A stretch of DNA of 64,000 bases from the NCBI GenBank assembly GCA_016195085.1, contig JACQAG010000055.1:62001-126000 (forward strand), in the 5' to 3' direction. A program made the translations under genes and the position numbers. The stretch is from Pseudomonadota bacterium (GTDB lineage: Bacteria; Pseudomonadota; Alphaproteobacteria; SHVZ01). Position 1 is the first letter of the stretch. Every line of letters starts with the position of its first letter. This document shows positions 19,725-45,103 of the stretch, one piece after another. A model generated the notes under the pieces. The model ran no database searches, was not told where the DNA came from, and was given only the letters and a program-made list of their open reading frames with translations.

Positions 19725-19747
19725 TACCGGCGATCATCCGAGATGGG

Positions 19748-19775
19748 AAAAGGGGCCGCTCGGCCCCTTTTCTTT
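19748..19775 (+). terminator. intrinsic terminator after PuuD-like gene
   Basis: Perfect 10-bp stem AAAAGGGGCC/GGCCCCTTTT around a GCTC loop, followed by CTTTT. It lies 23 bases after the stop codon and ends the plus-strand transcript; the A-run at its base allows some function in the other direction too. Confidence 0.88.
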
Positions 19776-19841
19776 TGCGTGTGGGTGTCTTGAGGCCGTC
19801 GTGATCCGGATTGGAACGCGCGCCGCATTTGGGAACCGCCA

Positions 19842-33845: not shown

Positions 33846-34295
33846 CTACTTCATCTGGGCCGCACAGGCCTCCGCAATGGCACGCGCCTCCGGATCGCCC
33901 AGGGGCTGGCCGTTGTAATAGGCCCGCCCGTCCTTCACCGTGACATAGCCAAGATAGGCCTTGGCGTCGAAGGCCGGGGTCTTGGTCGTTTTGGCGCTGG
34001 ATCCGCCGGCAACTCCGGGAAGCGTGCGCGTGATCTCGATCGCAAAATCCTTCGGCACCTCGATCCGCCGGCGGTTCCCAAGATCGGCCGGGGCGACCGC
34101 GCGTCCCTGGGCATCCACACCGGGCTGATACTTGACCCCCGGGGGCGTCTTGTAGACCTGGATGTTGCTGCAATCATTGGGAGTAATGGCGATCCGCGAG
34201 GCCCCTGACGGTGCCTGCTGGGCCGCCGCCGGCATGCCTGCGCAAACCAGGGCAGCGATGATCGTCCGCTGCCAATTCAGCCTCTTTGTGGACAT
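33846..34295 (-). CDS. secreted protein of unknown function
   Basis: A 149-residue exported protein. The signal peptide is residues 1-25 (TIIAALVCAGMPAAAQQ). The mature part has two cysteines (DCSNIQVYK and EACAAQMK) that could form a disulphide bridge, and no recognised domain. The ATG at 34295 is preferred to one 30 bases upstream because the positively charged N-region (STKRLNWQR) follows it. It lies upstream of tatA on the same strand with a 111-base gap; a link to Tat export is not supported. Both ends lack neighbours that would suggest a role. Confidence 0.7.
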   Translation of the reverse strand: MSTKRLNWQRTIIAALVCAGMPAAAQQAPSGASRIAITPNDCSNIQVYKTPPGVKYQPGVDAQGRAVAPADLGNRRRIEVPKDFAIEITRTLPGVAGGSSAKTTKTPAFDAKAYLGYVTVKDGRAYYNGQPLGDPEARAIAEACAAQMK

Positions 34296-34377
34296 GGCGC
34301 TTAGATGGGCCTCGCCCGGGAACAATACGAGACCCAGCCATTATCGCATGACGGGTCGACGTCCTGACGCTTTTCTC

Positions 34378-34406
34378 GTGACGCCGGGCACGAAATCGAC
34401 TAGGTT
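34378..34406 (+). promoter_or_regulatory. candidate promoter of the small RNA
   Basis: GTGACG (34378-34383) and TAGGTT (34401-34406) are separated by 17 bases and match the -35 and -10 consensus at about four of six positions each. They lie on the plus strand, with a possible start near 34413. Confidence 0.4.
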
Positions 34407-34412
34407 CGGCCA

Positions 34413-34577
34413 ACTGAAAAAGGCTGAAAAAGAGCGCGCCACAGAGCGCAGCGCGGCCCGAGTTTAGGGAGGAAACGCCAACAGGCGTCTGGAAGGGACA
34501 GCGTCCCTTACCAAAATCATAAATGCATACGCGCCTACAGCATGGCAAGACCCAAAATGGATCTTGCCATTTTTATT
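34413..34577 (+). ncRNA. candidate small RNA with three hairpins and a terminator
   Basis: Non-coding stretch between two minus-strand genes. Successive hairpins are ACGCC-AACA-GGCGT (34475-34488), AAGGGAC-AGC-GTCCCTT (34493-34509, perfect 7-bp stem) and a strong terminator stem (34542-34570). An unpaired GGAGG lies just before the first hairpin but no start codon follows at a usable distance, so it is not a small coding gene. No known RNA family was recognised; I considered 6S, SRP and tmRNA and none of their signatures is present. Confidence 0.45.
34542..34577 (+). terminator. intrinsic terminator on the plus strand
   Basis: Stem ATGGCAAGA/TCTTGCCAT (34542-34550 and 34562-34570) extended inward by three pairs around an AAA loop, followed by TTTTT then ATT. 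The T-run is only on the plus strand, although both flanking genes are on the minus strand. Confidence 0.8.
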
Positions 34578-34655
34578 GTGCGGATTTCTGCAGAATTGAT
34601 TGAGCTATAGGCACAAGCCGAGAAATTGATCGGGTTGTTGCTCAAACCAACGGCA

Positions 34656-35213
34656 TCATTTCTTGCGGCTGCGGTGGCGGTCCTTGCCCATCCACGGTGG
34701 ATTGAGCTTGGCGATCTGTCGGTAGACCGGGCAACCGGCGTCATGCGCGCCCGGCAGATAGCCGATGCTCATCAGGAACTCGCCCACGATCTCGCCGCCG
34801 GTGAAGCGGAAGGTGCGCTTGAACAGCTTGACCCAGTCGGCCTTCTCCAACGGATGGTGGCGATGGATCCACTGGGCGAAGGAGCCGTGCTCGCGCGCCA
34901 GCGCGAGGATGACGCCGGCATTGTGGATGACGGCGTCGATCTTCAGGCGATTGCGGATGATGCCGGCATCCGCCATGAGACGCGCCCGCTCCTTGGCACC
35001 ATAGGCGGCGACCCGCGCCGGCTCGAAGCCTTGGAACGCCGCGCTGAACGCTTCGCGTTTGCGCAAGATAGTGAGCCAGGACAAGCCCGCCTGGTTGATC
35101 TCCAGCGCCAGGCGCTCGAACAGCACGGAGTCGGAGTCGACCGGGAAGCCGTATTCGCCGTCGTGATAGGGCGCATGGAAGGGGTGGCCGGGGGCGATGT
35201 CGCAGTAGCTCAT
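34656..35213 (-). CDS. tag: DNA-3-methyladenine glycosylase I
   Basis: Removes 3-methyladenine from alkylated DNA as the first step of base-excision repair. 185 residues. The zinc-binding set is intact: Cys4 (MSYCDI), His17 (APYHDGEYG) and the C-terminal His and Cys of GAHDAGCPVY. The core has LFERLALEINQAGLSW near residues 31-46 and the helix-hairpin-helix region FQGFEPARVAAYG. The ATG at 35213 shares one base with the DUF1467 stop codon (TGATG), so the two are coupled. The 360 bases after it hold only the candidate small RNA. Confidence 0.95.
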   Translation of the reverse strand: MSYCDIAPGHPFHAPYHDGEYGFPVDSDSVLFERLALEINQAGLSWLTILRKREAFSAAFQGFEPARVAAYGAKERARLMADAGIIRNRLKIDAVIHNAGVILALAREHGSFAQWIHRHHPLEKADWVKLFKRTFRFTGGEIVGEFLMSIGYLPGAHDAGCPVYRQIAKLNPPWMGKDRHRSRKK

Positions 35214-44494: not shown

Positions 44495-45103
44495 TCAGAC
44501 GCCTCCCCCGGTCGGCACCTTGACGACCGTGACCGTCTCCTCGCGGCGGCGGGCGAGCTGGCGCTGGATGTCCTGCCGGCGCACACCTTCGCGGGTCCGC
44601 AAGGTGAGCACGATCGCCCCGATCATCGCCACCAGCAGCACCATGCCGGAGGCTTGGAAAAGATAGATGTAGTCGGTGTAGAGCACACGGCCGAGGGCCG
44701 CCGTGTTGGTGACCTCGGTTGCCGGCTGCAACGGCTGCAAGGTCATCACTTCGGGCACGAAGGCCCAGGTGGCGAAGCCCAGCACCAGCTCGGCCAGCAG
44801 GATGATGCCGACCAGCCCGCCGATCGGCAGGTATTGCAACGCTCCATGGCGAAGCTCCGCGATGTTCACATCCAGCATCATGACGACGAAGAGGAACAGC
44901 ACCGCCACGGCGCCGACATAGACGACGACCAGGATCATCGCCAGGAACTCGGCGCCGAGGAGGAGGAACAAGGCGGCGGCGTTGAAGAAAGCGAGCACCA
45001 GGAACAGCACGGAATGCACCGCATTGCGCGCCGAGATCACCATCACTCCGGAGGCGACGGCGATGGCGGCAAACAGATAGAAGCTCAAAGCGTGTACGAT
45101 CAT
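44495..45103 (-). CDS. nuoJ: NADH-quinone oxidoreductase subunit J
   Basis: Membrane subunit of complex I, 202 residues. Five helices are expected; visible blocks are FYLFAAIAVASGVMVISARN, VLFLVLAFFNAAALFLLLGAEFL (with breaks), and the conserved ILVVVYVGAVAVLFLFVVMML, which contains the pi-bulge region of helix 3. The C-terminal tail is charged. The start follows a 181-base gap that contains palindromic repeat R4, the only large gap inside the operon. Confidence 0.96.
   Translation of the reverse strand: MIVHALSFYLFAAIAVASGVMVISARNAVHSVLFLVLAFFNAAALFLLLGAEFLAMILVVVYVGAVAVLFLFVVMMLDVNIAELRHGALQYLPIGGLVGIILLAELVLGFATWAFVPEVMTLQPLQPATEVTNTAALGRVLYTDYIYLFQASGMVLLVAMIGAIVLTLRTREGVRRQDIQRQLARRREETVTVVKVPTGGGV

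Follow-up and report, generated by a model that had tools for sequence, protein, structure and literature searches.

The alphaR8 RNAs (suhB, MmgR, and SisA; family RF00519 in Rfam) have been linked to carbon storage in the case of MmgR and to nutrient uptake in the case of SisA. In PMC7143759, MmgR is described as limiting the accumulation of polyhydroxybutyrate in Sinorhizobium, and the C/U-rich anti-Shine-Dalgarno motifs of AbcR are placed in unpaired regions. PMC12559287 presents a 10-mer as the seed of alphaR8 and names a gene for N-formylglutamate amidohydrolase as the usual neighbour of the alphaR8 gene. It also contains the report, dating from 2025, of an antagonist of the alphaR8 RNAs, the Caulobacter sponge CrfA, in which a G/A-rich loop pairs with the 10-mer. 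In searches on related subjects, over a literature collection with few subscription journals, no description of an RNA antisense to an alphaR8 gene was found; mmgR, suhB, and RF00519 were likewise not found in an Azospirillum sRNA paper.

The locus considered here probably contains, on its minus strand, a second, divergent alphaR8-type sRNA gene of the MmgR/SisA kind, and this is the most likely of several readings. Because these readings overlap, their likelihoods may add up to more than one. As a divergent second copy of alphaR8, the gene would extend the family modestly; if the plus strand were also transcribed, the locus would illustrate the origin of RNA sponges.

The gap downstream of tag and its alphaR8 match

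The window (the whole stretch of 64,000 nucleotides that was analysed) contains a gap at 34293-34655 in which a preliminary description had placed a plus-strand small RNA, lying between two minus-strand genes. The two genes are indeed there:

33846..34292, minus strand: gene for a hypothetical protein, with relatives in five of six sister-genus genomes
34656..35204, minus strand: tag, encoding DNA-3-methyladenine glycosylase I (PF03352, E 1.6e-39)

For the open reading frame at 33846-34325, searches of Pfam and NCBIfam at E 0.001 gave no match, and none of the open reading frames across the gap was accepted as a gene. The existence of a small-RNA locus in the gap is well supported. The plus strand had been proposed for it, and a plus-strand RNA is possible; a match to a known family, a promoter of the family type, and a strand-specific hairpin all favour the minus strand.

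No known RNA family had been recognised in the gap, and at the curated Rfam cut-offs the interval does remain empty. A permissive search of 351 bases, however, places RF00519 at 34493-34419 of the minus strand (37.6 bits, E 2.1e-6), and up to E 10 the only other families in the interval are three weak and unrelated ones. Since 37.6 bits falls short of the Rfam gathering score of 41, which is a curation limit, the window copy is here called alphaR8-type, divergent, and the shortfall is counted against an alphaR8 gene. In a genome-wide search with RF00519, the window copy comes second (E 6.8e-6), and the third match reaches only E 0.025. R1, a covariance model made from 34 other alphaR8 sequences with the window sequence left out, gives the window 40.4 bits (a rough E of 6e-10), the best score among 81 sources, of which the next has 12.4 bits; because the RNAalifold structures behind R1 are poor and miss hairpin 1 (see below), this model acts mainly as a sequence model.

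The main alphaR8 copy of this genome (alphaR8-1; 72 bits; contig C48, locus L009) lies outside the window and adjoins a gene for N-formylglutamate amidohydrolase (PF05013, E 4.6e-74). The minus-strand copy (alphaR8-2) has in common with it an identical stretch of 26 nt, GGCGUUUCCUCCCUAAACUCGGGCCG. It has no amidohydrolase neighbour, a position that is usual rather than obligatory, and its neighbours are tag at one end and, at the other, the hypothetical gene and tatA. Among the tat loci of 80 relatives, R1 found no alphaR8 near tatABC (nothing above 12.4 bits); to judge from match positions, 72 of these loci extend upstream of tatC to at least the distance of the window gene, and 8 end short of it. 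Downstream of tag in four sister genomes, R1 and Rfam gave nothing beyond a single R1 match of 7.7 bits (E 1.3). The position of the minus-strand gene is, in short, not conserved, which is counted against it.

Counted in its favour is the fact that more than one alphaR8 copy per genome is common. Among 190 alphaproteobacterial genomes, 107 have an RF00519 match at E 0.001 and 86 have one that passes the cut-off; at least two matches occur in 52 of the 107 (counted by eye), although part of the weak matches may be other anti-Shine-Dalgarno RNAs. Each of the six sister genomes has one match above the cut-off. A further conserved element of this family, in which CCUCCCUGUUYA precedes a GC-rich hairpin and then a run rich in T, was observed on the minus strands of four loci (L012, at 1501-1576, L026, L027, and L029); it matches alphaR8 weakly (14.9-22.3 bits with R1) and is possibly another family of anti-Shine-Dalgarno sRNAs. 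A terminator-linked element with GUUCCUCCAAAGACUUCGGCCCC was also observed at around 1500-1575 in L028 (minus strand) and L030 (plus strand), with R1 scores of 21.0 and 17.7 bits.

Promoter, seed, and terminator on the minus strand

The minus strand carries the following parts, the 5' end of the RNA being placed from the position of the promoter:

34430..34512, minus strand: predicted divergent alphaR8 (MmgR/SisA-type) sRNA of about 83 nt, from the RF00519 match, with its 5' end near 34512
34520..34549, minus strand: promoter-like site CTTG-N20-CATTTA, from a weight matrix of alphaR8 upstream regions
34490..34513, minus strand: 5' hairpin UGGUAAGGGACGCUGUCCCUUCCA, from the predicted fold
34474..34489, minus strand: alphaR8 hairpin 1, GACGCC-UGUU-GGCGUU, from the RF00519 match and the fold
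34466..34475, minus strand: 10-mer UUUCCUCCCU, the anti-Shine-Dalgarno seed of alphaR8, from the alignment (seed role from PMC12559287)
34424..34459, minus strand: intrinsic terminator of the minus-strand RNA, with its stem at 34459-34432 and the tail TTTTTCAG

The 10-mer is invariant in all 35 aligned sequences (that of the window and 34 high-scoring family matches), and it is largely unpaired in the predicted fold of the minus-strand RNA. Two further family features are present. The first, a weak hairpin upstream of the 10-mer, corresponds to hairpin 1 and is barely telling, being reached by 83 of 3000 shuffled and 486 of 3000 window-drawn flank controls. The second is a Rho-independent terminator directly downstream, at 34459-34424; with the 26-nt core held fixed, it is equalled by only 10 of 3000 shuffled flanks and 1 of 3000 window-drawn ones. 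Its hairpin (34429-34465) forms well on the minus strand only, at −16.3 kcal/mol, versus −8.3 kcal/mol on the plus strand. Since this terminator also has a T-run and points the minus way, the earlier statement that a T-run exists only in the plus direction is wrong for the interval as a whole. Over 34424-34513, the fold has −38.7 kcal/mol (z −3.09) on the minus strand and −32.5 kcal/mol (z −1.88) on the plus strand. An inverted repeat between promoter and body also occurs in several other alphaR8 loci, as read by eye.

The promoter weight matrix was trained on 34 other alphaR8 upstream regions, the window being left out. Of the 127,930 window positions it scored, CTTG-N20-CATTTA comes 21st, and it is the best between 34300 and 34660; the distance of the site to the gene is inside the range of the other alphaR8 loci. 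Two points are counted on the other side: the score of 4.7 is below that of 32 of the 34 training sites, and the four Caulobacter siblings, SisA to SisD, are described in PMC12559287 as having no promoter motif in common.

Sequence, structure, and promoter-like and terminator signals are thus found together on this strand, and the family suggests what the RNA might do. It would be made from its own promoter (34549-34520), would end at the terminator (34459-34424), and, by analogy with the family, would associate with Hfq; its single-stranded UUUCCUCCCU would pair with Shine-Dalgarno regions in mRNAs involved in nutrient uptake and carbon storage, and so repress their translation. The main copy, the one adjoining the amidohydrolase gene, would then be its sibling. 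A decayed and silent remnant, from which neither strand gives a working RNA, would fit the score below the cut-off and the failure to find the locus in relatives; it is improbable, given that the 10-mer, the terminator, and the promoter-like site are intact and in the right order.

Plus-strand signals and a sister-genus sRNA

An alphaR8-type gene on the minus strand does not, by itself, explain everything in the gap. The plus strand has features of its own:

34542..34578, plus strand: intrinsic terminator of a putative plus-strand transcript, with its stem at 34542-34570, a 9-bp outer stem, and the tail TTTTATTG
34378..34406, plus strand: weak promoter-like pair GTGACG-N17-TAGGTT (GTGACG at 34378, TAGGTT at 34401), read from the sequence
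34408..34575, plus strand: candidate antisense or sponge RNA (uncertain), from similarity to a sister-genus sRNA and complementarity to alphaR8

The strong plus-strand terminator that had been described is real by a strict stem scan, which finds just two such sites on the two strands of the 64-kb window, this one included, whereas 40 shuffles average 0.33 sites and contain at most 3; its 45-nt fold has a z of −4.24. The stricter scan was adopted because an energy-only scan, in which this terminator is 9th of 30 candidate sites, does no better than four tile shuffles, which give 22-33. The other strict-scan site, a 9-bp perfect stem with a T-run, is at 19747-19780 of the window (plus strand). 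The plus terminator is unexplained by the minus-strand alphaR8 gene alone. It might mark another, putative transcript, which would be antisense to the minus-strand RNA over its full length. The inverted repeat at 34542-34570 could instead be an operator that extends into the −35 box of the minus-strand promoter, since its 9-bp perfect dyad overlaps the CTTG box at 34549-34546. This is the least probable of the readings: a T-run follows the dyad on the plus strand only, and a genome search for exact matches to the dyad, TGGCAAGA-N6-20-TCTTGCCA, finds this site only.

The start of a plus-strand transcript is less well marked. The promoter with a 17-base spacer that had been put forward is a weak pair, and a sigma-70 consensus scan of the interval finds no promoter with at least 9 of 12 matches on either strand. 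The hairpins described for the plus strand fare partly better. Over 34378-34577, this strand folds at −70.2 kcal/mol (z −3.66), which none of 200 shuffles matches; several of the hairpins are mirrored on the minus strand, and the plus-strand hairpins may be partly a mirror image of the minus-strand RNA.

What gives the plus strand more weight is a conserved element in the gap between tag and groES in sister genomes (L141-L144). On the strand opposite tag, equivalent to the plus strand of the window, this element reads as an sRNA with a modelled span of 112-115 nt. The sRNA is divergent from groES in five of the six sister genomes, with groES adjoining it in all five (L141-L144 and L166), and its end adjoins tag in four of them. 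It has two hairpins with GNRA loops (the first GAAA, GCAA, or GUAA, and the last GAAA, GGAA, or GCAA, in the five genomes), between them a second stem-loop with GGGGAGGA, and then a T-rich terminator. In the RNAalifold structure from four of the five sequences, 98.7% of cells pair, and 2 of 500 shuffles give as high a covariation score. Changes on both sides are seen in two pairs, a number that 239 of 500 shuffles equal and that slid versions, with at most one, do not. The fold is stronger on the strand equivalent to the plus strand of the window in four of four cases.

R2, a model built from four of the five sister sRNAs (that of G003 being independent), finds the sRNA in five of the six genomes at 121-146 bits, and does not find it in G001, which is 77% complete. 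Over 142 genomes of the class, it finds one sister and a weak match in G145 (E 0.02), which was rejected on reading by eye as its stretch is without the core. BLASTN against 190 class genomes gives two sisters and six short matches, judged spurious on reading. The sister-genus sRNA has no name and no Rfam family (up to E 5 in the four loci searched).

This sRNA is a candidate alphaR8 sponge, as predicted by pairing models. In four genomes, it is predicted to pair with the resident alphaR8 in an unbroken run of 15-18 bp; in G002 and G004 the best of 200 shuffles has a run at least as long (18 in the former, and 16 versus 15 in the latter), and the duplex energy is better than that of all 200 shuffles in each of the four. 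In each of the five sister genomes, the cofold gain exceeds that of 60 of 60 shuffles. Scrambling the 10-mer removes only about 4-7 of the 18-24 kcal/mol of this gain, so the alphaR8 seed accounts for only a part of the pairing that is predicted.

The plus-strand candidate of the window lies on the same side and strand beside tag as the sister sRNA. The sister sRNAs have GTGACA in four genomes, 31-32 nt from the leader, and the window has GTGACG at 30 nt. The local similarity of the plus strand to four sister sRNAs is reached by 0-1 of 300 shuffles and the global similarity by 2-9 of 300; with the core masked, the figures are 0-1 and 0-15 of 300. Without the core, the similarity of the upstream flank is reached at 3 of 1500 random places and by 1 of 32 alphaR8 complements (32 of the 34 loci being usable). 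The downstream flank has no similarity (equalled at 1319 of 1500 places and by 24 of 32 complements), and for both flanks together the counts are 74 of 1500 and 3 of 32. R2 gives the window only 13.1 bits, with a higher score of 17.6 at 44661; complements of ordinary alphaR8 genes have similar scores (13.4 for L022), and in the 34 alphaR8 loci four of the six R2 matches are antisense to the gene. Since R2 does not separate alphaR8 complements from the plus strand of the window, its score was not used as proof of orthology, which is suggested, rather than shown, by these sequence comparisons.

The genome has two groES genes (L178 and L179), in different contexts, whose products are 75% and 65% identical to the sister protein; neither locus contains such an sRNA. 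Upstream of the second groES is GGCACTC-N9-GAGTGCTAA, which resembles a CIRCE element.

Two explanations involving the plus strand are serious alternatives to the minus-strand reading. In the first, only the plus strand (around 34408-34575) would give a functional RNA, the orthologue of the sister sRNA linked to groES and tag, acting as a CrfA-like sponge that sequesters alphaR8 via the 10-mer; the minus-strand match would be its mere complement, and most of the alphaR8 score could come from the core that complements the sponge, which is counted against the minus-strand gene. The strong terminator, the equivalent position of the sister sRNA, the similarity in the upstream flank, and the lack of the sRNA at the genome's own groES loci speak for this explanation, as does a cofold gain with alphaR8-1 above that of 60 of 60 shuffles. 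It is nevertheless rather unlikely in view of the low R2 score, the dissimilar downstream flank, the lack of a consensus promoter, and the poor formation on the plus strand of the hairpin upstream of the core.

In the second, both strands would be transcribed, giving alphaR8-2 and a full-length antisense RNA that would titrate both alphaR8-2 and alphaR8-1. Each strand has separate signals, and the plus strand is fully complementary to alphaR8-2 by position and has a 28-bp pairing run with alphaR8-1 (with one G-U), although complementarity to the 10-mer is trivial if the plus strand is the mere complement of an alphaR8 gene. The mean unpaired probability of GGGAGGA, in the stretch complementary to the 10-mer, is 0.55 in the window and 0.57-0.71 in four sisters. 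With its weak plus-strand promoter, and with the same arrangement found in no second genome, this explanation is a possible one, slightly ahead of the first. A narrower form, in which the plus-strand RNA opposite alphaR8-2 is a sponge orthologous to the sister sRNA, the sister genus having kept the sponge only and this genome both, is more doubtful than either. If such a pair were real, it would show a route by which a CrfA-like sponge can arise, namely by antisense transcription of its own target gene after that gene was duplicated, or, the other way round, by which an sRNA can originate on the strand facing its antagonist. If the plus strand is made, alphaR8 would have another candidate sponge in the sister-genus sRNA. 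The divergent alphaR8-type gene on the minus strand is nevertheless the preferred reading.

Comparison with described systems

AbcR (alphar15) and NfeR1 (alphar14) also have anti-Shine-Dalgarno motifs, but they belong to other families, neither of which has a match in the interval up to E 10. CrfA of Caulobacter crescentus, as described in PMC12559287, is closer to the plus strand: a G/A-rich stretch that complements the alphaR8 10-mer is present in the window candidate as well as in the sister sRNA, and the latter has, like CrfA, three predicted stem-loops with this stretch in the second loop. The likeness is one of description rather than of CrfA sequence, and the window candidate, unlike CrfA, lies exactly opposite an alphaR8-like gene. 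The closest system to the minus strand is the alphaR8 family itself (suhB, MmgR, and SisA-D; RF00519). The window copy resembles it in UUUCCUCCCU, in the preceding hairpin, in the terminator, in a promoter of the type of many members, and in the occurrence of multiple copies; it differs in its divergent stems, in its score below the cut-off, and in its neighbours, which are tag and tatABC where the amidohydrolase gene would be usual.
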